From a virus, in the IMG/VR virus record IMGVR_UViG_3300038463_000318, positions 1 through 24,487 of that record: a stretch of DNA of 24,487 nucleotides. One strand, 5' to 3'. Positions 1 to 24,385 of the stretch are shown here, in pieces (within the stretch, counting starts at the first letter, position 1; every line of letters begins with the position of its first letter). Below the pieces are notes generated by a model that saw only the letters and a program-made list of their open reading frames with translations, was not told where the DNA came from and did not search any database. The position numbers were made by a program, and so were the translations under genes.

Positions 1-413
1 AACACCAGCTCCTGCACGCTATAGCCATAGGAGACGGCATCGAGCACGCAATCGAGCACTTCATCGAACTTGACCTTCTTCAGCTCCGCCTCGACAAACT
101 CCTTGGTATCCACGGCGGCCGAGTCGCCGTCGTTGGCCGGCTGCACCGTGATATTGCGGCTCATCACACTCAGCTTCAAATCGTCGAGCGCGTTGGCAAC
201 GTCTTCGTCTTTGTCTTCCAGCTCGCGATAGAAGGCCATGGTCTCCGGCATGCGATAGGTCATCGAAGCCCAGATATCCGAAGGGCTGCGCGTGCCCCCG
301 AAGGCCAGCGTGTTGCGGTAGAGCGAAATCTGCTGCATGTAGAGACTCTGGTCCGGAATCATCTCGCCCTTAGGCGGCAGCGGCGGTGCGGCTTGCGCTT
401 GGCTGGTAGTCAT
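1..413 (-). CDS. Mu gp29-like portal protein (DUF935), N-terminal part
   Basis: The gene is cut by the window edge; 137 codons from the ATG at 413-411 are visible. The translation starts MTTSQAQAAPPLPPKG and later reads FDEVLDCVLDAVSYGYSVQE. That is the conserved DUF935 element in which a helix is followed by a GYS/GFS-x-x-E motif. Portal proteins form the dodecameric head vertex through which DNA is packaged, working with the terminase encoded just upstream. The ATG overlaps the terminase stop by one base (TGATG), so translation is probably coupled. The family assignment rests on sequence style plus position after the terminase. The rest of the protein, including the channel-forming part, is outside the window. 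Confidence 0.85.
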   Translation of the reverse strand, partial: MTTSQAQAAPPLPPKGEMIPDQSLYMQQISLYRNTLAFGGTRSPSDIWASMTYRMPETMAFYRELEDKDEDVANALDDLKLSVMSRNITVQPANDGDSAAVDTKEFVEAELKKVKFDEVLDCVLDAVSYGYSVQELV

Positions 414-1876
414 CACATCAGTCCTTTCGTTCCTACGTAGGAAGCAGGCACATCCGGCGTCCCAATCTCAAGCGCACAGTTGCCGTCGTCGGCGGCCAGG
501 TCAGCCAGGGCCTTGGCCCAGAATGCGTCGGCGTGAGCGGTGACTTTCCTCTTTGCGCCGCCGGCGACGGCCGTGTCCACCTCAATGCGCGGCGCATCGA
601 AAGTGACCCCGCCACCTGTCGACTGGCGCTTGATGGCCTGCAGCTCGGCGCGGATCTGCGTGTCGTAAGGTATCCGGGCCTTGGCGTTTGAAAATTGATT
701 TTTGATGCGGACGGCCAGATCGATCTTCATCCGCACGCCCGCGTCGTTCGTGCCGCCGAAGTTGATACCCATCAGCCGGCCGGCGTTGGTCTCGGCCAGC
801 ATGTCGTAGAGCCCGGAGCCGATGCCGGTCTTGTCGATCGCGCCGCGCGTGCACATCTTTAAAATCGGATCCAGTATCCGGTGCTGGTTGGGAAAGGTGA
901 TGCCATGCAGCCAGAACACGCCGCGCGTCCAGCTCACATCGCCTATCTTTTCGTCTAGCCACGCGCAAGTGGCGTCGTGATCGCGGCCCACGTCAATGCC
1001 CAGCGACAGATGCCCGCGCGCTTTGAACCCGGCCATGTCGATCACAGTGCCGGCATTCGGGTCCATATGGATCAGTTTGGCGCCCGTGCTTGCGTCTTCG
1101 CATGCGGCGATGAAGGGCAGAGTCAGCCAGGAGCCTGTGGATTTGAGGAAGACGCAGCAGAATTCCTGATTCCATGTATCCTCATCGTTCAGGCCGCGCC
1201 GCATCTGCTCGATGTTGATCGGGCAGCCCTCGGCCACGGCCCGGTGAACATCGACCCAGTGACCCGACCACTCATTCTCGAACACCGGCAAGACAGCCGG
1301 CGCGACGCCCAGCTCAAGCCCGAGGTCGCGGGCGATGTCAAAGAATTTGCCTTGCTCGCCATTTGGAGTCGAAAGTACTTCAAGAGAATTGCCCAGCGCG
1401 ACCTGGCGGAAGACGGCCGCGAAAATAGCGTAGCTGTCTTCATGGTGCGCAAATTCATCCAGGACTGCGTCGCCGGGATAGCCGCGCGCCGTGCGCGGAT
1501 TGGCCGGCAGCGCAATGATGCGGCTCCCATTGGGAAAGCTGATGCGGCTCTGAATGGCTTCGATGTTTCCCAGCGAATCGATGAAGTCTTCGTTCGCGAT
1601 GTACTGTGCCGTGCCACCCATGAGCTGGCAGAGCTTTGCGCATGTCTCGACAAACTCCACCGACTGCGCCTTCGAAGCCGAAAGCACGGTAGTGGTGCGG
1701 CCCGGAACGCGCATCGAGATCAAGACGCGGCGGAGCGCCGTCGCGAACGAGTAGCCGATGCGAGCCGACTTGACCGCGCACTTGAAGCGCGAATCGTCGT
1801 CGATCCAGCGCTGCTGATACGGCCGCATTTGCAATACGGCCGGCAGCTTGATCTGGTGGCCGAGGACTTCGATCAT
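413..1876 (-). CDS. Phage terminase large subunit (Mu gp28-like)
   Basis: This 487-residue protein is the predicted packaging motor and headful nuclease. The ATPase half has a degenerate Walker A at about residues 34-43 (AVKSARIGYS), a Walker B with catalytic acid at 137-144 (AVLDEFAH) and a coupling motif near 168-173 (LSTPNG). The RNase-H-like nuclease half starts at 293-301 (GIDVGRDHD), with a further acidic site near the C-terminus in HADAF (D450). The KSxxIG form of Walker A is typical of Mu-type terminases. Length is close to what is usual for the family. It overlaps the upstream DUF3486 gene by four bases (ATGA) and the portal gene downstream by one base, forming a tight packaging operon. 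No inactivating change is visible. Confidence 0.93.
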   Translation of the reverse strand: MIEVLGHQIKLPAVLQMRPYQQRWIDDDSRFKCAVKSARIGYSFATALRRVLISMRVPGRTTTVLSASKAQSVEFVETCAKLCQLMGGTAQYIANEDFIDSLGNIEAIQSRISFPNGSRIIALPANPRTARGYPGDAVLDEFAHHEDSYAIFAAVFRQVALGNSLEVLSTPNGEQGKFFDIARDLGLELGVAPAVLPVFENEWSGHWVDVHRAVAEGCPINIEQMRRGLNDEDTWNQEFCCVFLKSTGSWLTLPFIAACEDASTGAKLIHMDPNAGTVIDMAGFKARGHLSLGIDVGRDHDATCAWLDEKIGDVSWTRGVFWLHGITFPNQHRILDPILKMCTRGAIDKTGIGSGLYDMLAETNAGRLMGINFGGTNDAGVRMKIDLAVRIKNQFSNAKARIPYDTQIRAELQAIKRQSTGGGVTFDAPRIEVDTAVAGGAKRKVTAHADAFWAKALADLAADDGNCALEIGTPDVPASYVGTKGLM

Positions 1877-4284: not shown

Positions 4285-5055
4285 CTACTTCGCCTGCACC
4301 GCCTGGGCCACGGTCAGGTTGTCCGGCCGGACCCACATCGCCCGAAACTTGTTTTCGAAGACGGCCGCCACCACCGCATCTGTGGAAAACGTCGCCGAGT
4401 TGTCTTGCCGGCTCTCGCCCTGGACGCTGAAATTCGCCGACCCGTCCCGGATCAGCGCCTGGTCGACGGCGTAGCTTTTCAGGTGCATGAGTACCTTCGA
4501 GAACTTGACCCGGATATCTACGCCGGGGAAATTCATAAGTGCGTGGATAGGTGAGCGCTGGCAACTTATATCTCCCCGGCACTCCGCCTGTAACTCGCCC
4601 CGGTCGAGATAGATGCGTACTAATACCCCGGCCTGGGCCCGAGCCTTGATTGCATCGATCACAGCCTGGTCGGTGAGCGAGAACGCGGCCAAGTCAAGCG
4701 ATTGTTTCGCCGACGCGATCGCCGCCACATCCAGCGTCTCTAGGTTGGTCTCCGGCGAGTAGAAAGTGCCAGCCGGCAGCTGCGCCGGCGTCGGCGCGGC
4801 AACCGCCAGCAGCCGTTCCGTATTCCCAGTGAAGACAGCCAGGTCCATCGCCTGGATCTGTGCGACAATAGCGTCTCGATCATCGGGCTTGGCCACAGCC
4901 AGCCGCTGCTTCAACTCGTCATAGGTTTGCGCGTGGCAGAGCTTTCCCCCATCGCCGCCACAGCTCAACAGCCAGCCGAACACCGCGAGCATCAGCGCGA
5001 GCGCGGCAAAGCACCCCCTAACCCCTGACCCCTGATCCCTGATCCCTAACTGCAT
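4285..5055 (-). CDS. Secreted PLD-family nuclease-like lipoprotein
   Basis: The 256-residue protein carries a single complete HKD motif: H191-x-K193-x4-D198, followed by G205-S206-x-N208 and a downstream acidic/polar ESRQDN segment. This is the pattern of the Nuc subfamily of phospholipase D-type nucleases, which work as dimers. The N-terminus has a basic segment and a hydrophobic core (about 16-30), then LLSC with Cys32, so export and possibly lipidation are predicted. I chose the ATG at 5055 because GGAGAG precedes it by eight bases and it overlaps the upstream stop by only ten; an in-frame ATG at 5130 has no ribosome site. Residues 4-14 are encoded by tandem heptamer repeats. A likely role is cleaving DNA or lipid phosphodiesters in the periplasm; the substrate is unknown. 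Confidence 0.8.
   Translation of the reverse strand: MQLGIRDQGSGVRGCFAALALMLAVFGWLLSCGGDGGKLCHAQTYDELKQRLAVAKPDDRDAIVAQIQAMDLAVFTGNTERLLAVAAPTPAQLPAGTFYSPETNLETLDVAAIASAKQSLDLAAFSLTDQAVIDAIKARAQAGVLVRIYLDRGELQAECRGDISCQRSPIHALMNFPGVDIRVKFSKVLMHLKSYAVDQALIRDGSANFSVQGESRQDNSATFSTDAVVAAVFENKFRAMWVRPDNLTVAQAVQAK
5014..5048 (-). repeat. Tandem heptamer repeat, TAGGGAT/CAGGGGT type, five units
   Basis: On the plus strand five seven-base units follow each other: CCCCCTA, ACCCCTG, ACCCCTG, ATCCCTG, ATCCCTA. The array lies inside the start of the PLD-like gene and encodes the n-region of its signal peptide. The same family recurs at 5425-5455, 6506-6617 and 16524-16551. Confidence 0.8.
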
Positions 5056-5312
5056 TTCACACTCTCCACCAGTTGCCAGATCTTGCCTTCGATCAACCGC
5101 TCGGGGACGATGAAGGGTTTCTGCGTGCATTGAATCGTCAGGGCCTGGGTATCCTCTTCGTATGTCCAGGTCGCCATCATGCCGTAGCCCACAGCCGTTC
5201 CCGTGTCGCCCATAACCGTCGTGCAGTCCGCCTGCGCGTAGATCCGCGCCCGGATCGCCTTGAACTGCGGCCGCGTGATGTTGCGGAAAGTGATCGGCTT
5301 GCAGGCAGCCAT
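5046..5312 (-). CDS. Hypothetical 88-residue protein of the lysis unit
   Basis: I do not recognise this protein. It starts MAACKPITFRNITRPQFKAI and has a helix (about 13-28) followed by alternating hydrophobic/polar stretches (TWTYEEDTQALTIQCTQKPF, about 49-68) that look like beta strands. It ends with an amphipathic helix and VESVKCS. There is no signal peptide or membrane span. It lies between the 126-residue protein gene and the PLD-like gene and overlaps the latter by ten bases, so it is co-transcribed with the lysis unit. The ribosome site is weak. Three cysteines (4, 30, 61) plus a C-terminal one could form disulfides if it were exported, but nothing shows that. Confidence 0.6.
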   Translation of the reverse strand: MAACKPITFRNITRPQFKAIRARIYAQADCTTVMGDTGTAVGYGMMATWTYEEDTQALTIQCTQKPFIVPERLIEGKIWQLVESVKCS

Positions 5313-8952: not shown

Positions 8953-9182
8953 TTGAAAAGCCCTGGTCATACAAGCAAATCACCGCTGCTGCCGAGAAAT
9001 CGATTCTCGGGTCTATGACGCTTGCCGCGAAAGCGACTGAACCTCTGGAAGCTATGCTTCATTGGCGGACGGCGTGGGGCGTCTTCCGTGGATGGGAATC
9101 TCTCACGATGGGTTGGCAGCAGAAAGCCGACGCCGAGCGCCTTGAAGCCGCGACCCTGCCACCAAAGAGGGACGCCTTATGA
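8949..9182 (+). CDS. Hypothetical 77-residue early protein before transposase
   Basis: The protein starts MIEKPWSYKQITAAAEKSIL and is predicted to be all helical, with a tryptophan-rich middle (HWRTAWGVFRGWESLTMGWQ, about 38-57) and a charged end. No family is recognised. The start at 8949 is chosen because it forms ATGA with the 33-residue gene; an earlier in-frame ATG at 8910 lies inside that gene. Its stop overlaps the transposase start by ATGA, so its expression is tied to transposase A. Confidence 0.65.
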   Translation: MIEKPWSYKQITAAAEKSILGSMTLAAKATEPLEAMLHWRTAWGVFRGWESLTMGWQQKADAERLEAATLPPKRDAL

Positions 9183-11095
9183 GCAGCCAACTAGCCCTCG
9201 CACTGCCCACCCCAACCGCAATCACGCCATCGCGGCCACAGCGCGTGGCGCTTGTGGACCCGGAGCAAGTCGCCCAGGCCGAACAGCGCTTCGCCATCTT
9301 AGAAACGATTCTGGCTTACAAGGCCGAGCCGCTCCGCTACGGCATGCTGCGGCTCAAAGACGGCACGCCGGTCACCAGCCATACGCGGATGGTCGAATAT
9401 ACGTCCGAGGTTTCCGGCGTCTCTCGCTCGCAGCTCTACCGCTGGCTCAGCGCTTTCAGTGAGGGTGGCAAGCCTGCCCTGGTAGACCGACTAAGACGAG
9501 ACAAAGGCAGCAGCCGCTTCTTCCGGACCTATCCCAAGGCCGCGTGGCTGGCCTGCTACCTCTTCTTCGGCGATCCGGACGCGCCGGAAGCACAGCGCCG
9601 GTTTATGGGCCAGAGCTCCCGTTTCTGCTTTGAAGCCATCCTGCGCGATCTCGACATGCTGGGCATTCCGGCAGAAGACGCGCCGTGCTATGACACCGTC
9701 CGCGCCTATCTGGCCTCAATGCCGCCGTCGCTCACGGTCTACGCGCGGCTGGGTAAAAAGGCCTATCGCGAGCGCATGGCGCCCTACTTGCGCAGCCAGT
9801 TCACCGACCTCTACGCCAACCAGGTGTGGGTGGGGGACCACATGATCCACGACGTCGAAGTGATGAACGATTGCTTTGACAACGTGGAGTGGGGCGCGCC
9901 GATCCGCATCCGCTTCAGCGTCATGATGGACCGGCGCTCGCGCCTGTTCGTGGGCGGGAGCTGGTGCTGGGAAGGCAGCTCGCGCGCCATCGCGGCATGC
10001 ATGCGCCGCGCAATTCTCAAATACGGACCGCCGGAGCACATCTATGTTGACAATGGCAAAGATTACCGTAAGGTGGCGCGTGGAGCCCTCCCTGGCTACC
10101 TGGTTGAGTCACCGCTTGCGCCCGTCGACTGGTGGCGCGCGGAACTCGATTCCATCGCAGCAACTGGTTTCCTCGCTCGGCTCGGCATCGCCGTCACTCA
10201 TTGCCTGCCGCATCACCCTCAATCCAAAAATGTCGAGCGCGCCTTTCGCACCGTGCATGAGCGCTTCGATAAAGCCTGGCCCACCTACACCAGCGGCGAT
10301 CCCTTCACCCGGCCCGACTCAACCGAGCTAGCCATGATGCAGCACCGGCGGCTGATCAAGGCCGGCCGCGTCGAGGACAGCAAGCATCCGCTGGCGTCAA
10401 AGTTCATTCTGGCGTGCCTTGCGTGGCTTGAGGAGTACTCCGACACGCCGCAGACCGGCCAGGGCATGGACGGCGGGACGCCGCGCCAGGTGTTCGAGGC
10501 CAACCTCAACCCAAACCAGAAGCCCGCGCCCGAGCCTGCCGCGCTGACCCTGCTGATGGCTGAGCGCGAGAAGCGCGGCGTGCATGAGTGCAAGGTGCGC
10601 CACGCCAACCGCTTCTATGAGGCCGCGGACGAAACCGGCTGGGCCGTAATGCACGCGTTCAATGAGCGCGATGTCCTGATCGTGTTCGACCCAGTAGACC
10701 TGAGCAACATTGCCGCTGTGGATGAGGACGGCAACTTTCTGGCGTGGCTCCAGCCTGAGCAGTTGACGCGCTTCGCGCCCTATGACAAGCGCACCCAGCT
10801 GCAAATAGCCGACAGCATGGCCACGCGGCGGCGCCTTGAAAAAGGGAACCGCCAGGTGCTTGAGGTGATCAGCCATGCCGCGCGCCAGAACGGCGGCCTC
10901 TCGCCCCTTGAATCTTTGGTCAAGAGACTCGAACTTCCAGCAGGTGAAACGGGCGCAGACCTGATCACCCAACGCAAACCGCGCTTCGCTCCGGATAACG
11001 ATGAACCGCAGAACCTCATTCCGGGGGAAGCCGCAGACCGCATGATTGCTTCGCTTAAAAGGAGTAAGACGAGTGGGACACCTCAGAACCAATAA
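9179..11095 (+). CDS. Mu-type DDE transposase (A protein)
   Basis: The 638-residue protein catalyses integration and replicative transposition of the phage. An N-terminal helix-turn-helix covers about 66-95 (SGVSRSQLYRWLSAFSEGGK). The rve/DDE core runs from about 205 to 365 with D220 (VWVGDH), D291 (IYVDNGKDY) and E353 (HHPQSKNVERAF), so all three metal-binding acids are present. The region from about 440 to 560 matches the Mu transposase C-terminal beta-barrel, ending with a basic helix and a tail likely to contact the B ATPase. The separate N-terminal enhancer-binding domain of Mu A is not evident, so the protein resembles the shorter BcepMu/Tn552-like form. The end overlaps the start of B by 23 bases. 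Confidence 0.95.
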   Translation: MSSQLALALPTPTAITPSRPQRVALVDPEQVAQAEQRFAILETILAYKAEPLRYGMLRLKDGTPVTSHTRMVEYTSEVSGVSRSQLYRWLSAFSEGGKPALVDRLRRDKGSSRFFRTYPKAAWLACYLFFGDPDAPEAQRRFMGQSSRFCFEAILRDLDMLGIPAEDAPCYDTVRAYLASMPPSLTVYARLGKKAYRERMAPYLRSQFTDLYANQVWVGDHMIHDVEVMNDCFDNVEWGAPIRIRFSVMMDRRSRLFVGGSWCWEGSSRAIAACMRRAILKYGPPEHIYVDNGKDYRKVARGALPGYLVESPLAPVDWWRAELDSIAATGFLARLGIAVTHCLPHHPQSKNVERAFRTVHERFDKAWPTYTSGDPFTRPDSTELAMMQHRRLIKAGRVEDSKHPLASKFILACLAWLEEYSDTPQTGQGMDGGTPRQVFEANLNPNQKPAPEPAALTLLMAEREKRGVHECKVRHANRFYEAADETGWAVMHAFNERDVLIVFDPVDLSNIAAVDEDGNFLAWLQPEQLTRFAPYDKRTQLQIADSMATRRRLEKGNRQVLEVISHAARQNGGLSPLESLVKRLELPAGETGADLITQRKPRFAPDNDEPQNLIPGEAADRMIASLKRSKTSGTPQNQ

Positions 11096-17960: not shown

Positions 17961-18352
17961 ACGGGACTGCCAGAATTCAACGCGTAATCGCCCGCTGGGT
18001 CGAGTCGCGGTTCGGCCACCTGAACCAATCGTGCCCCCAGGAACGTGCTATGCGTGTGCTTGAGGAAGCGGTTGAGCTTGCGCAGAGTGTTGGTCTTAGC
18101 CAGGCCGATGCTACTCGCTTGATGAATCACGTCTATTCAAAGCCGACGGGGCATTACGCGCAGGAAGCGGCCGGATTGAACGTGTGCTTGCTAGCCTTTG
18201 CGGAATGCGTCGGAATCGACCTTGCTCACGAGACCAGCCGCGAGGTTACGCGCATTCATAAGATTCCAATCGATCACTTCAGAGAACGTCACCAGGCGAA
18301 AGCGCGTGCAGGCGTTGCGCTCTTTTTATCCGGCACGGAAAAGGATGACTAA
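17957..18352 (+). CDS. MazG-like all-alpha NTP pyrophosphohydrolase family protein
   Basis: The 131-residue protein has the helical block ERAMRVLEEAVELAQSVGLS (about 29-48) with the E-E-x-x-E metal site, and a second block QEAAGLNVCLLAFAECVGID (about 69-88). In that second block the first acid is kept but the usual second Asp is Gly; a Gly here is common in the phage subgroup as I remember it. The family hydrolyses nucleoside triphosphates to monophosphates, clearing unusual nucleotides or alarmones. Phage versions may adjust nucleotide pools or starvation signals. Activity cannot be judged from the sequence. It follows the 56-residue gene by ATGA. Confidence 0.7.
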   Translation: MNGTARIQRVIARWVESRFGHLNQSCPQERAMRVLEEAVELAQSVGLSQADATRLMNHVYSKPTGHYAQEAAGLNVCLLAFAECVGIDLAHETSREVTRIHKIPIDHFRERHQAKARAGVALFLSGTEKDD

Positions 18353-18356
18353 CCAA

Positions 18357-18875
18357 ATGAGCCAGATCACACCGAAACAACTAACCCGCCTGCAGGTTCT
18401 CTATAGCCAGCTCGCCGCGCACGAGCTGGGCGTGGGCACTGACCGCGAGAGCCGCATGCGCTGGGCCACGGAACGGCTGCGCAAGCCGGTGACGAGCTTC
18501 AGGAATCTCTCGGTCGACGATGCCGGCTACCTGATCGATAGCATCCAGACGCACCTGGGCGTGAAGGCCCCGCTCAAGAAACGCTTGCCGCGCGATCAGG
18601 CGCGCCGTGCAGGGCTCGACGGCCGTAAGGATGGCATTGAGTATAAAAACGCGCCGGAGATGGTCAGGGAGAGCGATTTGCGCGTTATCCAGCGGCTGCT
18701 CTCGGAACTCAACTGGGGCGAAGACAGCCTGCGTAAGCTGCTCGACGGCGGACGCTCGCCGCTGGGCAAGCGCGCCGACAAACAGATCCGTACCGTGTCT
18801 GACGCGAATCACGTGATCTGGGCGCTGAAGCGTTTCGCGCGCCAGAGGGCCAACGCCAACAAGGGGCCAGCATGA
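18357..18875 (+). CDS. GemA/Mu gp16-like early protein
   Basis: From ATG 18357 the protein has 172 residues. The N-terminal domain (about 1-70) starts MSQITPKQLTRLQVLYSQLA and includes RMRWATERLRKPVTSFRNLS and DDAGYLIDSIQTHLG. This resembles the GemA/DUF1018 domain with its conserved lengths and final helix. The C-terminal part (about 75-172) is basic with a helical region ESDLRVIQRLLSELNW. In Mu, GemA affects host gene expression and DNA supercoiling. An alternative ATG at 18345 (adding MTNQ) would overlap the MazG gene by eight bases; either is possible. The stop overlaps the next gene by ATGA. Confidence 0.65.
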   Translation: MSQITPKQLTRLQVLYSQLAAHELGVGTDRESRMRWATERLRKPVTSFRNLSVDDAGYLIDSIQTHLGVKAPLKKRLPRDQARRAGLDGRKDGIEYKNAPEMVRESDLRVIQRLLSELNWGEDSLRKLLDGGRSPLGKRADKQIRTVSDANHVIWALKRFARQRANANKGPA

Positions 18876-19540
18876 CAGAAAGCGCACAGCTCGTTCTTCC
18901 TTGCGCGGAGATCCAGGACCTCCGGGCTGCGGCTCCGCATTGGGAACGGCGCGAGCCGGAAAAGCAACGCCAGCAAAGGAGAGCCGGCATGACGCAGACA
19001 CTCCAGACCCTTCTTCCTTTCGCCGAGCGCGAATATGTGGACGCGGCGCGCGGCGCCCGCATTCTAGGCGTGAGCTTGACCACTGTGTACCGCCTGGGCG
19101 CGACGCTGGACTTTTATAATAAGCCGCTGATTACGATGGTGGAATACCGGCGCGGCTCGCGCAAGCGCATCCTTTATTCCTCCATCGTCTCCTTTTGTGA
19201 CAAGCTCCGCGCGCACTACATGATTGCCGATCGGCGTCCTGCGTTGGCCAATCGGCTCTTCCGGCATAGGGATGAGGATTTGTTGCCCTTCCCGCTGGCG
19301 GATACGATCCGCTCGGCGGAGGCGCTGGAAGCGCTGGGCTACCTGAGCAACAAGCCGCTGGTGGCGCTGATTGAGGAAGGACACTTCGAAGCGTATCGCC
19401 TGGTGCTCGATAACCCGTGGCGGATCTCGCGCAGTAGCTTTGCCGCGTATCTGCATGGCCTGCACGATAAACCCATCGAGGCGGTGGCACCCTACAAACG
19501 CGTGCCCCGGCCACGCGAGATCGGGAATACCTGCGCCTGA
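18872..19540 (+). CDS. Double helix-turn-helix (excisionase-like) protein, last early gene
   Basis: The full frame gives 222 residues. A first HTH at about 56-80 (DAARGARILGVSLTTVYRLG) and a second region at about 145-195 (IRSAEALEALGYLSNKPLVA, then WRISRSSFAAYLHGL) both resemble excisionase/MerR-type DNA-binding domains. Two starts are plausible. ATG 18872 overlaps the previous stop (ATGA). ATG 18989 has AAGGAG seven bases upstream and would give a 183-residue protein. The peptide after each start is similar (MTESAQLVLPCAE against MTQTLQTLLPFAE), which points to a duplicated 5' end. The protein could regulate late genes or transposition; the target is unknown. Confidence 0.65.
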   Translation: MTESAQLVLPCAEIQDLRAAAPHWERREPEKQRQQRRAGMTQTLQTLLPFAEREYVDAARGARILGVSLTTVYRLGATLDFYNKPLITMVEYRRGSRKRILYSSIVSFCDKLRAHYMIADRRPALANRLFRHRDEDLLPFPLADTIRSAEALEALGYLSNKPLVALIEEGHFEAYRLVLDNPWRISRSSFAAYLHGLHDKPIEAVAPYKRVPRPREIGNTCA

Positions 19541-19612: not shown

Positions 19613-22600
19613 ATGGCCCCGATCACTATCGCTTCCGTCACCATTCCAGCCTGCAAACGCGCGCTCCGCTCATTGCTGGTTATTTTCTCGATCCTGCTCG
19701 TGCCTTTGGCGACCGCGTTCGCGTCCGTTTCTTACACTCTAATCACCGCGTCCCAGATTCAGGATGTGGGCGCCAACACGCTGCAGAACGGCAACATTAC
19801 CTTTGCTCCCGTCGATGCTTCAGGAAGCCCTCTCGCATCGCGGGGGATTATGGCCCGCAGCGTGGTGTGCCTGGTTGTTGCAGGCGCGATAACCACGCAG
19901 CAGAACGGTTTTTCCGCCTGCCAAGTGGCCGACGCGCTGGCGGCCAACCCCACGCTGTGCTACAAAATAGCGCTGTACGACACGGTAAAACAGTCGCAGA
20001 TTCCCACGCCTGGCCAATCGTGCGTGCAGCCGACGGGCAGCACCTGGTCGTATGACGCTTACACCCCGATCAATGCGTCAGTGCCGCTGCAGGTTGTCGC
20101 GGGGAGTGGACTCAGCGGGCTCACCGCGGATGGCGCAGGTGGCATCAATGTCGCGGGAAACGTCACAGCGGCGGGTGCCTTTTCAGGCGCGGGCACAGGG
20201 CTCACAGGCACCGCGCCGGCGCTTAGCATTGGCGGCAACGCCGCAACGGCTACCAGCGCAACCGACGCAACGGCCAGATCGGCGGCGGCGGCGGCTCAAT
20301 CCACAGCCAACACCGGCGTCGCGAACGCTGCCACGGCGGCCACAGCGGCCGCGGCCGCACAGGCCACGGCCAACGCCGGAGTGACAAACGCAGCGGCGGC
20401 ACAGACGACTGCTAACACCGGCGTCGCGAACGCTGCCACGGCGGCCACAGCGGCCGCCGCCGCGCAGGCCACGGCCAATGCCGCGCTGCCGGCAAATGGG
20501 TTAACCTCGACGACGGGCGGCAATGTCACCGGGGCGGGCGCGGCCACCTTTGGGACGGCCACAGCGGCGCAGCACTGCATAGGCACAAGCTGCATCTCCG
20601 TCTGGCCGCCTTCGGCGCAGTTGCCGCATTGGACGGCCAAGTTGCAGGCCGTGAAAACGGGGGGAACGCCAACTGTCGCCCAAGTCTGCATGATTGGGCC
20701 GTCCACAACTTATGGCGCGCACTGCGATGCCCTCGACCTAAATGACCCTCTTTGCTCAGTGGGCGGCCAAGCCGCTTATACCTTCAACACAAATTATGGG
20801 GTGCCGGCCACGTGGGATAGTTTCTTTGGGGATGCGGCCGCGGGTTCGGGCGGCACTCCGCCGACTGTTCCGCAGTACGGCAACTCCGACAGCCGGATCA
20901 CTCTTGGCTCATGGGCGCAGAACACGACGTATATCTCTCTGGGGCACTACACATTTTCTGCAACGTCTTCGGCTTCCCCGCTCACCTTCAGCCCGATTGT
21001 GCAGCTTGGCACCCCTAGCCAGGTGGACACTTTTCAAATCCTCTACCCGATCGCGCCGGGCTTAGGCTCCTTCTCGGCGAACATCGATGGGGGTACCCCA
21101 ACCGTTGTAAGTCAAACCGGCGCGAACGCTGCGGGCATGGTGACACTTACGGCATCGGCGGGCGTTGGTACACACACGCTCAATATTTCGGAAGCGTCCG
21201 GCACAGCTGATATTGACGGCGCGCGCGCGTACGACTCTACCACATCTCATGTTGTCTTCAACCTTGCCGGAAGCGGCTCCGAAAACAGCCAACAGGCAGC
21301 TGACACGTCCACAGCATATGGCGCAGGCCAATCGGCGATTTATTCAGCTCTCGGTTGCGACGTAACCGTGATCGATATGACATTGGGCATGAATAATGCC
21401 TATCAAGGTAACGAAACGGCCCACCCCACCCAGGCATCCATCCAGGCGCTCATCAATGCCGCGCAGACGGCGGGGAGCGATGTGGTGTTGCTTTCCCCTG
21501 TACGCTTTAACCCGTCCTCTTTCCCGCCGGCGACAGATCAGACGCCTTTTTACGCCATTGCGAAAGCCTTGGCGGCGGCCAACACAAATGCAAACGCCAA
21601 TGGCGCGCCGCTGCCGCTCGTGGATGATTACTCACAGGTCATATCGTATGCGTGGGGTGAGGTGCAACCCGTTCCATACTATTCATCGGTTGACAACCTG
21701 CATCCATCTGCTTTTCTTAACGGCATCATCGCCACGGACTTGCAGGCGGTGTTAGCTGCGGTCCCTGGCACTGGCTACGACAACGTGGTTGGCAACACAG
21801 GCAACAGCTCAGGCGCGACATCCCTCGCCCTCCCGTATGAAAAGTGCACAGCAAGCTGCACTCTCTCTACTAGTTACTCGGTTTACCACCTGGATACGGC
21901 TGGGATCACTGCAACACTCCCCACGATGGCCACCAAGCCCTTCGGCTTTGTCGTCGTGGCCAACGTTTCCGACGGGACAACCTACTTAGCGCTAGGCCCT
22001 GGTACTGTGGGGCTGGAGATGCCTGGAGGCTGCAACACATACGGCGGCTGCTCATCTCCCCTCGCGGCGGGGGCAAAAACCATTTTATGGTACGGCGGGG
22101 CTTCCGGGAATTATTGGACAGATGAGGGCGATATACCATCGCTTGCCCTGCTCGCCTCGATAGGGACCGCCTCTTTGCTGGACTTGCCGCACACCAGTGT
22201 TTCGGGTAATTACTCGCCGGTTGCCACGGACGCGGTGATTCTCGAGACCACAGGCGGAAGCACCTTTACCTTAAACACTATGGCGCAGAATCAGTTGGTT
22301 TATGTGCTCAACGAGAATGCCGGGACGATGACTCTGATCGCGGGCACGGGCGTTACTTTTTATAACATGACCTCGGGCTTGCAGTTGCAGGCAGGGCAGG
22401 GCATATGGCTCTATGCGAGCGGCGTCACCCCAGCTTGGATTAACCTTGGTATCTCCCCATCTGTTGCGCAACTGGCGGCAATCCCATCCACCTCGCAAGA
22501 AACAACGCTCGCAGCTGTCAATGCGGGAGGCACTGTTGGAACTTCATGGGGTGTGGGTGTGGGTGGCGTCCTTGGCTATTACGGCGCTTTGCAGAACATT

Positions 22601-23998
22601 CCCCACACGGTCATTTCTGGGAGCTATACCGTCCTCTCGACGGACGCCCTGGTGATTGAGAACGGGTCTAGCGGCACTCTCACTCTCAACGCGATGTCTG
22701 CCAATCAACTGGTTGGCGTGCTCAACAACGGCGCTGGGAGTTTGACGGCTGCGCCGGGCACCGGAGTTACGTTTCTTAATATGCCCGCTTCTAACATCTT
22801 TTCAGCCAATCAATTTACGTGGCTCTACTACAGCACTTCTTCGGCGTCCTGGATCAACCTTGGACTTATCCCGTCGGTTGCTCAGGTGGCCGCGATACCA
22901 ACGGCCGCGCAAACTGCGGAATTGGCCAATATTACAGCCGGGTCCACGCCAAGCACTTTCTGGGGCTTAAATTCCAGCGGCGTGCATGGCTTTTACGCTC
23001 CAACCGGAAGCGGCACGGTCAATTACTGCGCCAGTGCGGGATATGTCGCAATCTACAACACCGCTGGGACGGCTATCAGTTGCGTTAACTCACTCACCCA
23101 AAACACGACTGGCACGGCGGCCAACGTCACCGGCACGAACAATAGCACACTGACCACACTTTCAAGCTTGTCGCTTCCAGTAGGGCAGATCACGGGATTG
23201 GGCACCGGCGCCACGGCCACGATTGCCAATTACTGCCCGCTGGCGGGGTGTGCCATGACTGGCGCTCTAACTGACACCACGGCGTCGGCCTTTGCTTCCA
23301 CGCTGGCTGTCGGCACATCCACATTTAACGCGTATGGCGATGCGGCGTCTTTGGATATCTTAGGGGATATCATCGCCAGTAACTCAACTGGGGCAAATAC
23401 AAACTCTATCTCCCGCTTTTTAGGTGTTGCCTATAGCGGCCACGCTCAAACGTTGATTGCCGCCACTAGCTCATCTACCACGAACGTCGTAGACCTTTGC
23501 GGCGGCACACAGTATGGAGAACCTTGCACCGCTTTAGATATCTACATGGGCCCCGTTGGGACAAAGGCCGCAGGAACACTGGTGGCGCAATTTGCCTCTA
23601 CGGGGCTTGCGATGAGCGCTGAATCTATCAGCGGCGCATCAAGCTACTCGGGCAACGGCACAGCCTCATTTGCAGCAGGGACGACGGCCACGGCGGGCAC
23701 CTCGCCTGGTACCCCGGTATGCACAACTAGCCATGTTTGCGATTCATTCTCGGGAATTATGAGCTTCACCACGGGGACCGGGACTTCCGCCGCCGGGGTG
23801 TTGCTCACCATCACGCTGCCTACGACGCGGACAAACCTTCCCAACTGCTCTGGCCGCGTCTATCTTGCGGCCTCCCCTTATACCGAGCTTCCTTCGCGGC
23901 TCACCTACACCACATCCACGATCGTGTTTAATGTGGGCACAACACCCGCCGCAAGCACAGCCTACGAGCTTGTGTACGCCGGTTGTGGCGGTAATTAA
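19613..23998 (+). CDS. Large secreted/fibre-like protein with SGNH esterase-like domain
   Basis: The 1461-residue protein starts with a Sec-type signal peptide (basic Lys/Arg at 15-19, hydrophobic 20-36, likely cleavage after AFA at 35-37). Residues about 205-295 are an Ala/Thr/Asn-rich repeat. A candidate SGNH hydrolase domain covers about 355-715: block I IGPSTTYG with Ser364, an LAGSGSEN glycine block near 551, a GMNNAY asparagine block near 592, and the catalytic pair Asp694-x-x-His697 in VDNLHPSA. Beta-type units follow, two of them clearly homologous (DNA at about 22180-22590 and 22590-23010). A Cys-containing C-terminal domain ends in YAGCGGN. SGNH domains on phage fibres deacetylate host glycans, but a signal peptide is unusual for a fibre, so a secreted cargo protein is the alternative. 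Confidence 0.75.
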   Translation: MAPITIASVTIPACKRALRSLLVIFSILLVPLATAFASVSYTLITASQIQDVGANTLQNGNITFAPVDASGSPLASRGIMARSVVCLVVAGAITTQQNGFSACQVADALAANPTLCYKIALYDTVKQSQIPTPGQSCVQPTGSTWSYDAYTPINASVPLQVVAGSGLSGLTADGAGGINVAGNVTAAGAFSGAGTGLTGTAPALSIGGNAATATSATDATARSAAAAAQSTANTGVANAATAATAAAAAQATANAGVTNAAAAQTTANTGVANAATAATAAAAAQATANAALPANGLTSTTGGNVTGAGAATFGTATAAQHCIGTSCISVWPPSAQLPHWTAKLQAVKTGGTPTVAQVCMIGPSTTYGAHCDALDLNDPLCSVGGQAAYTFNTNYGVPATWDSFFGDAAAGSGGTPPTVPQYGNSDSRITLGSWAQNTTYISLGHYTFSATSSASPLTFSPIVQLGTPSQVDTFQILYPIAPGLGSFSANIDGGTPTVVSQTGANAAGMVTLTASAGVGTHTLNISEASGTADIDGARAYDSTTSHVVFNLAGSGSENSQQAADTSTAYGAGQSAIYSALGCDVTVIDMTLGMNNAYQGNETAHPTQASIQALINAAQTAGSDVVLLSPVRFNPSSFPPATDQTPFYAIAKALAAANTNANANGAPLPLVDDYSQVISYAWGEVQPVPYYSSVDNLHPSAFLNGIIATDLQAVLAAVPGTGYDNVVGNTGNSSGATSLALPYEKCTASCTLSTSYSVYHLDTAGITATLPTMATKPFGFVVVANVSDGTTYLALGPGTVGLEMPGGCNTYGGCSSPLAAGAKTILWYGGASGNYWTDEGDIPSLALLASIGTASLLDLPHTSVSGNYSPVATDAVILETTGGSTFTLNTMAQNQLVYVLNENAGTMTLIAGTGVTFYNMTSGLQLQAGQGIWLYASGVTPAWINLGISPSVAQLAAIPSTSQETTLAAVNAGGTVGTSWGVGVGGVLGYYGALQNIPHTVISGSYTVLSTDALVIENGSSGTLTLNAMSANQLVGVLNNGAGSLTAAPGTGVTFLNMPASNIFSANQFTWLYYSTSSASWINLGLIPSVAQVAAIPTAAQTAELANITAGSTPSTFWGLNSSGVHGFYAPTGSGTVNYCASAGYVAIYNTAGTAISCVNSLTQNTTGTAANVTGTNNSTLTTLSSLSLPVGQITGLGTGATATIANYCPLAGCAMTGALTDTTASAFASTLAVGTSTFNAYGDAASLDILGDIIASNSTGANTNSISRFLGVAYSGHAQTLIAATSSSTTNVVDLCGGTQYGEPCTALDIYMGPVGTKAAGTLVAQFASTGLAMSAESISGASSYSGNGTASFAAGTTATAGTSPGTPVCTTSHVCDSFSGIMSFTTGTGTSAAGVLLTITLPTTRTNLPNCSGRVYLAASPYTELPSRLTYTTSTIVFNVGTTPAASTAYELVYAGCGGN
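20309..20483 (+). repeat. 70-bp imperfect direct repeat, offset 105, coding Ala-rich repeat
   Basis: Copies at about 20309-20378 and 20414-20483 are nearly identical. They encode a 35-residue period of the form AxAQATANAGVxNAA. The period suggests a trimeric coiled or fibrous shaft. Confidence 0.8.
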
Positions 23999-24257
23999 AT
24001 GGGGTTAAAAGAGCGGTAAAAGTTTATAAAGTGGTAACGGTAGCGGTTTTGGTGGTTTGCGGCTGGATTTGAGGTCCTAGGATGGGCTGTTTTACTGGGC
24101 GAAAAGCGGCTCTGACCCGCGTCAAATCTATCGCTGATGAGTTTTCCACATTATGGGCGCGGAAGGTAGTTTGGAGCGTTTCATATTATGGTACAGTGTA
24201 TTTATTGTTTGACGAAGAATCAACAACTTACGCCTAGGGTTTGGCTTTTTTGGAACG

Positions 24258-24279
24258 ACCACTCTCATCAAACTTCCGT
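24258..24279 (+). repeat. 22-bp direct repeat, copy 1 (candidate transposase-binding site)
   Basis: The first 20 bases are ACCACTCTCATCAAACTTCC, followed by GT. It is identical to 24364-24385. The length equals that of a Mu A binding site. Confidence 0.7.
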
Positions 24280-24363: not shown

Positions 24364-24385
24364 ACCACTCTCATCAAACTTCCGT
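24364..24385 (+). repeat. 22-bp direct repeat, copy 2 (candidate terminal transposase-binding site)
   Basis: It is identical to copy 1, 106 bases away, and is followed by ACTCACAG, which could hold the terminal CA of the element. A weaker inverted match (AAGTTTATAAAGTGGT, 24020-24035) lies nearer the last gene. Confidence 0.6.

Follow-up and report, generated by a model that had tools for sequence, protein, structure and literature searches.

Introduction

The textbook view holds that tailed phages produce their fibres and put them together within the cytoplasm. Tail and side fibres of lambda-like and B3-like siphophages are encoded beside TMP, Dit or J, and SGNH/GDSL modules (Lipase_GDSL_2) form part of phage tail fibres and tailspikes. 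Phage proteins that do leave the cytoplasm are known from other settings. Lambda Lom, Bor and T5 Llp are exported proteins of lysogeny or exclusion, with Lom being encoded directly after J, and the coat proteins pIII and pVIII of filamentous phages are virion proteins made with signal peptides, including disulfides in pIII; filamentous phages, however, are not tailed and are assembled in the membrane. Our search of openly accessible papers did not turn up any description of a Sec signal on a tail fibre.

Here we describe P0001, a fibre-type protein of 1461 amino acids with an SGNH module and predicted export, whose open reading frame (19613..23998, + strand) is part of IMG/VR record IMGVR_UViG_3300038463_000318, a 24.5-kb viral sequence (24,487 nucleotides, analyzed over its whole length and referred to as the window). 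P0001 shares with the SGNH/GDSL modules of tail fibres the Ser, Asn and Asp-x-x-His blocks and the location in a fibre, but has GPS instead of GDS, a Pfam score below the cut-off and a signal peptide in front. The protein family to which it belongs resembles lambda-like and B3-like tail and side fibres in gene slot, modularity and conserved N-terminus, whereas most of its members differ from these in having a Sec signal and even, paired cysteines. With Lom, Bor and Llp the family has in common the signal peptide, the phage origin and possibly the tail-operon location; unlike these, it consists of long modular fibre-type proteins with an enzymatic head and has signal-less homologues in the same slots.

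Results

Phage type and host group

The window derives from a transposable phage (MuA/MuB, B3-type terminase). It encodes a MuA-type transposase (9179..11095, + strand; phrog_310, E=2e-74), a MuB-like gene and a repressor; genes for a Mu gp27-type small terminase, the large terminase subunit (413..1876, − strand) and the portal are in leftward orientation, and the phage's own tail genes are not part of the window. When the large terminase was used as query, relatives of 50–81% identity were obtained from viral contigs and ten prophage contigs, the latter nearly all from Acidobacteriaceae/Terriglobia MAGs, and we therefore consider Acidobacteriaceae to be the host group; one contig was binned as a beta-proteobacterium, which is probably a binning matter. 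Near the terminase genes, the window also encodes a PLD-family protein (4285-5130, − strand; PLDc_2, E=6e-16) that has an HxKxxxxD motif, begins like a signal-bearing protein or a lipoprotein and is conserved in the phage clade (18 matches among the collected loci); the product looks like an exported nuclease or phospholipase.

Two conserved early-operon genes precede P0001: gene A (18198..18875, + strand) is found near the fibre slot in relatives, and gene B (18872..19540, + strand), with a weak excisionase-type HTH match, lies directly upstream of it. Promoter-like sites around the P0001 gene were not found above chance. The initial annotation had placed this gene apart from the leftward late genes, which is right for the window, and at the end of the prophage. 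The latter position is supported, short of proof, by a 21-nt element (~24212..24232, + strand) that recurs near the equivalent end of related phages and is a candidate for a phage end or a transposase site. A 22-nt perfect direct repeat (24258-24279 and 24364-24385), possibly representing transposase sites, was also noticed near the phage end.

Architecture of P0001

The predicted Sec signal peptide covers residues 1–37 (19613..19723, + strand), with an n-region containing R/K, the h-region LLVIFSILLV and an AxA-type site near residues 35–37, around which cleavage would occur. For signal peptides, we relied on a home-made heuristic score complemented by visual inspection; at 6.16, P0001 had the highest score of the window's 34 non-overlapping ORFs, the next one scoring 4.92. 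The signal is followed by an N-terminal domain (residues 38–165; 19724..20107, + strand) that is conserved among relatives and contains the cysteine pairs 86/103 and 116/137, by an Ala/Thr-rich repeat shaft (residues 206–300; 20228..20512, + strand) with 45 Ala residues and a 94-nt DNA repeat of 89% identity (20285-20378 versus 20390-20483), by an SGNH hydrolase module with an inserted beta region (residues 322–725; 20576..21787, + strand), and by two beta units of 127 amino acids each (residues 854–980 and 992–1118; 22172..22966, + strand) that are 49.6% identical to each other (E=1.7e-39). The C-terminal end contains Cys. The Sec signal, the alanine-rich fibrous repeat and the repeated beta units of the initial annotation were thus all recovered. 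Direct searches of the phages, viral_contigs and genome_contigs collections with P0001, its N-terminus or its SGNH part yielded no close relatives; the PDB sequence search with P0001 was empty, and PHROGs and NCBIfam gave no match for the protein.

The start of the gene deserves separate consideration. Its RBS region and first codons are identical in 55 of 64 nt to the start of a small gene in L176, and the first 12 codons (MAPITIASVTIP; 19613..19648, + strand) appear to be the remnant 5' end of this gene, which in relatives is separate and encodes ~130 amino acids. On the grounds of this match, the P0001 gene looks like an in-frame fusion following loss of the small gene. The latter is intact in four loci (L109:6475-6867 (−), L172:2070-2462 (+), L176:9755-10165 (+) and L173:4487-4924 (−)); its product is devoid of a signal peptide, and the gene lies directly upstream of, and overlaps, genes for signal-bearing fibres in transposable relatives.

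The SGNH module

Pfam Lipase_GDSL_2 matched P0001 below threshold (E=3.4e-4, 21.6 bits; cut-off 32.9). A better view of the module was obtained by alignment to L200:5675-8095(−), which is 31% identical to P0001 over the SGNH module, has the canonical GDS, GDND and DGLH blocks and itself remains slightly under the Pfam cut-off (E=4.3e-7, 31.1 bits). G362-P-S364 aligns with GDS of block I, D being replaced with P, which makes Ser364 (20702..20704, + strand) the putative nucleophile; G592-M-N594 aligns with GDND of block III and D694-N-L-H697 (21692..21703, + strand) with DGLH of block V. The initial annotation had claimed all four SGNH blocks. Its residue numbers for Ser364, Asp694 and His697 are exact, and blocks I, III and V stand by alignment, while the block II assignment, in which the Gly in FFGDAA of P0001 aligns with WFGQGN of L200, rests on these two sequences. 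A second relative, L289, has GDS, GIND and DxxHP blocks; this protein (L289:5698-7074 (+)), encoded on a different phage contig, is of the same SGNH subtype and has no signal peptide. Since the canonical blocks of L200 align with those of P0001 and L289 also has such blocks, which in our judgment outweighs the sub-threshold Pfam score, we regard the module as degenerate yet recognizable, with real blocks and a GDS to GPS replacement. An AF2 model of the module calculated from the single sequence, with no alignment, had a pLDDT of 34.

A family defined by the N-terminal domain

The initial annotation had described P0001 as an esterase/fibre hybrid; that this would be a one-off did not hold up when the ~125-aa domain directly following the signal peptide was used to define a family by HMM searches. 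The initial alignment of the domain was too divergent for use in scanning, and a scan with the N-domains closest to that of the window confirmed nothing; the HMM detected 36 proteins among the collected loci. Searches recovered the domain in 21/200 and 38/398 Acidobacteriaceae genomes and, beyond the family level, in 18/399 genomes when the class and 6/396 when the phylum was covered, and the viral scan added 22 contigs. After redundancy removal, the family comprised 70 members, found in prophages of Acidobacteriaceae and in viral contigs; 54 of them have a Sec signal and 16 lack one, a split that includes reassignment by eye of L270:2699-4087, whose signal the heuristic had missed, to the signal-bearing group. 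In the 54, the signal directly precedes the N-domain and AxA-type sites recur there; the 16 signal-less members begin directly at the N-domain. A chance signal peptide in P0001 was rejected on this family-wide conservation.

For relatives, a simple longest-ORF rule served to predict genes, and neighbours were labelled by PHROGs and phmmer. On this basis, 32 of the signal-bearing members reside in tail modules, 13 terminate the early operon of transposable phages and one lies in a head module, the remaining eight having no assigned module or being merely near some phage gene; among the signal-less members, 13 belong to tail modules and three to the early-operon end. Like 12 other signal-bearing members, P0001 occupies the last position of the early operon. 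Within tail modules, family genes are found between TMP and Dit or after a J-like tip. The TMP-fibre-Dit slot is occupied by signal-bearing proteins in L180, L185, L248 and L257 and by signal-less ones in L181, L183 and L247; no further large fibre-like gene was seen between TMP and J in the maps of L180 and L257. The members of L181 and L183 score above the Lipase_GDSL_2 cut-off. A 39-kb relative, G002, encodes a P0001 homologue at the equivalent place (41% identity over residues 15–152), followed by a second signal-bearing member. G015 encodes a signal-bearing SGNH protein at the end of its tail operon, following the J-like tip, and a fibre gene was not found at its early-operon end.

Beyond the conserved N-terminus, members differ in their modules (SGNH, collagen, beta-helix, beta-propeller, K1-lyase or CBM), SGNH matches being present in 10/54 signal-bearing versus 8/16 signal-less members. 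When searched by fold, the AF2 model of the P0001 N-domain (pLDDT 67.6) had weak matches among viral proteins (tail fibre, minor tail and collagen; 2.7e-3 was the best E value and none fell below 0.001), and the PDB fold search returned chance-level matches only. A tree of signal gain and loss, based on few columns, required ~4 changes (3–5 in bootstraps); the signal peptide may still have had a single origin in the family. Signal-bearing genes of related interest were also seen in a four-gene cassette between portal and head-protease genes, one gene of which includes the N-domain (L175:5866-10733 (−)), and, among relatives at a greater distance, as fibre-like proteins that have signal peptides but lack the N-domain (L121:13906-19086 (+) and L120:6688-8421 (−); G022 and G019).

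Cysteine pattern

If the signals are functional, paired cysteines are expected in the mature parts, as exported proteins prefer even Cys numbers (PMC7678975). In P0001, Cys14 lies in the signal peptide, and its removal leaves 24 mature cysteines, mostly in close pairs. In the first count of set 1, all 29 intact signal-bearing members were even in mature Cys (range 2 to 32); a recount gave 28/29, the difference being due to the cleavage site in L195. Because this pattern had been noticed after the fact, parity was retested on later sets, where 14/16 (set 2) and 5/6 (set 3) members were even (together 19/22, p=4e-4). Over all sets, 47 of 51 intact signal-bearing members had even mature Cys (p~1e-10), compared with 8/14 signal-less members as tabulated, with L270:2699-4087 still counted as signal-less (Fisher p=0.005), and with a background of 54% among 259 other ORFs of the loci; because members are related, the evidence is somewhat weaker than these p-values suggest. 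Odd numbers despite a signal were found in L250:8988-11267, L265 and L284, with L195 depending on the cleavage site. Chance parity was rejected by the background ORFs and the later sets. Inheritance alone does not explain the parity contrast, the counts being too widely different.

Within the N-domain, Cys was even in 51/53 signal-bearing versus 7/17 signal-less members. Cys116 and Cys137 were both present in 14 and both absent in 15 signal-bearing members, 29/30 thus being concordant, and were never both present in the five signal-less members examined. VKOR is encoded in 6/6 host genomes. Given that Cys parity and a co-varying Cys pair accompany the signal, export of the signal-bearing fibres into an oxidizing periplasm is well supported at the sequence level.

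Discussion

P0001 belongs to a family of fibre-type proteins, most of them signal-bearing, in phages of soil Acidobacteria, and the cysteine pattern of these proteins indicates real export. The sequences show the signal peptide, the SGNH blocks, membership in the family, cysteines that are paired and even in number, and the slot equivalence with signal-less forms. From these features we infer that P0001 may serve its transposable Acidobacteriaceae phage as a fibre or receptor-binding-type protein that would be exported through Sec with removal of its signal peptide, would form its disulfides in the host periplasm, possibly oligomerize and, at lysis, attach to released virions via the conserved N-terminal domain; the SGNH head would then de-esterify surface glycans, its presumed substrate, during adsorption. 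We assign this reading a probability of roughly 0.48. A fibre-type role is favored because the proteins headed by the N-domain are for the most part encoded in tail modules, where forms with a signal and forms lacking one share slots, because fibres typically combine a conserved N-terminus with exchangeable heads, and because the predicted mature N-terminus coincides with the point at which the signal-less forms naturally start. What counts against it is that we know of no route for adding an exported protein to a tailed phage, that the P0001-type gene in transposable phages closes the early operon, at a distance from the tail genes, that no N-domain fold match fell below E=0.001, and that three or four signal-bearing members have odd Cys numbers. 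A tail slot is in any case no proof of a virion role, as the exported Lom of lambda is encoded directly after J.

This leads to the most serious competitor, to which we would give about one chance in three: in line with the idea of the initial annotation, P0001 might be a secreted or surface-bound esterase-fibre outside the virion that alters or masks the host's own surface glycans, so that superinfection or adsorption to debris is prevented or the lysogen is converted. Such a protein would fit the signal peptide and the even Cys, exported phage proteins of tail operons are known from Lom, the phage has other exported-looking genes such as that of the PLD-family protein, and the slot at the early-operon end is shared by P0001 and 12 other members. 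However, 16 signal-less members occupy the same slots, half of them with SGNH heads, and, lacking a signal, could act outside solely on virions or post lysis; moreover, the conserved N-terminus and variable C-terminus follow the fibre pattern, and the promoter-like sites around the gene do not exceed chance. The initial annotation was supported in its point that a signal peptide is unusual for a virion fibre, whereas its proposal of a lysogenic-conversion gene is unsupported as stated, the family being mostly found in tail modules. It is improbable, in our estimation, that the signal stays on the protein as a membrane anchor, or is a functionless leftover, and that P0001 is an ordinary, cytoplasmically assembled fibre. 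Cleavage is a prediction, and the signal-less members do indicate that the N-domain can manage without export, but Cys parity and the co-varying pair accompany the signal, the P0001 count becomes even only after removal of the signal with Cys14, and AxA-type sites recur directly before the N-domain. Slightly less probable still is a defective gene, in which fusion to the start of the small gene and the GPS block would abolish export or catalysis; the in-frame fusion, the GDS to GPS change and the sub-threshold Pfam score would fit, but the frame is open across 1461 codons, the signal score is good, mature Cys remain even at 24, and Ser, Asn, Asp and His (S364, N594, D694, H697) are all retained.

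Extending the fibre reading of P0001, many tailed Acidobacteria phages might produce receptor-binding fibres via the Sec and disulfide pathway, fold them in the periplasm and add them to particles beyond the cytoplasm, while forms with and without a signal could replace each other within a slot; we consider this generalization tentative, at somewhat less than even odds. Exported fibres are a misfit with the textbook view of cytoplasmic fibre assembly: either fibre maturation takes place outside the cytoplasm in some tailed phages, or, throughout this host group, tail modules encode exported fibre-like proteins that serve a different purpose. Homologues with and without a signal in one slot constitute a natural control, and both alternatives are testable with existing isolates. 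The answer would be relevant to host-range prediction and to the use of such fibres, which may need oxidizing expression conditions.
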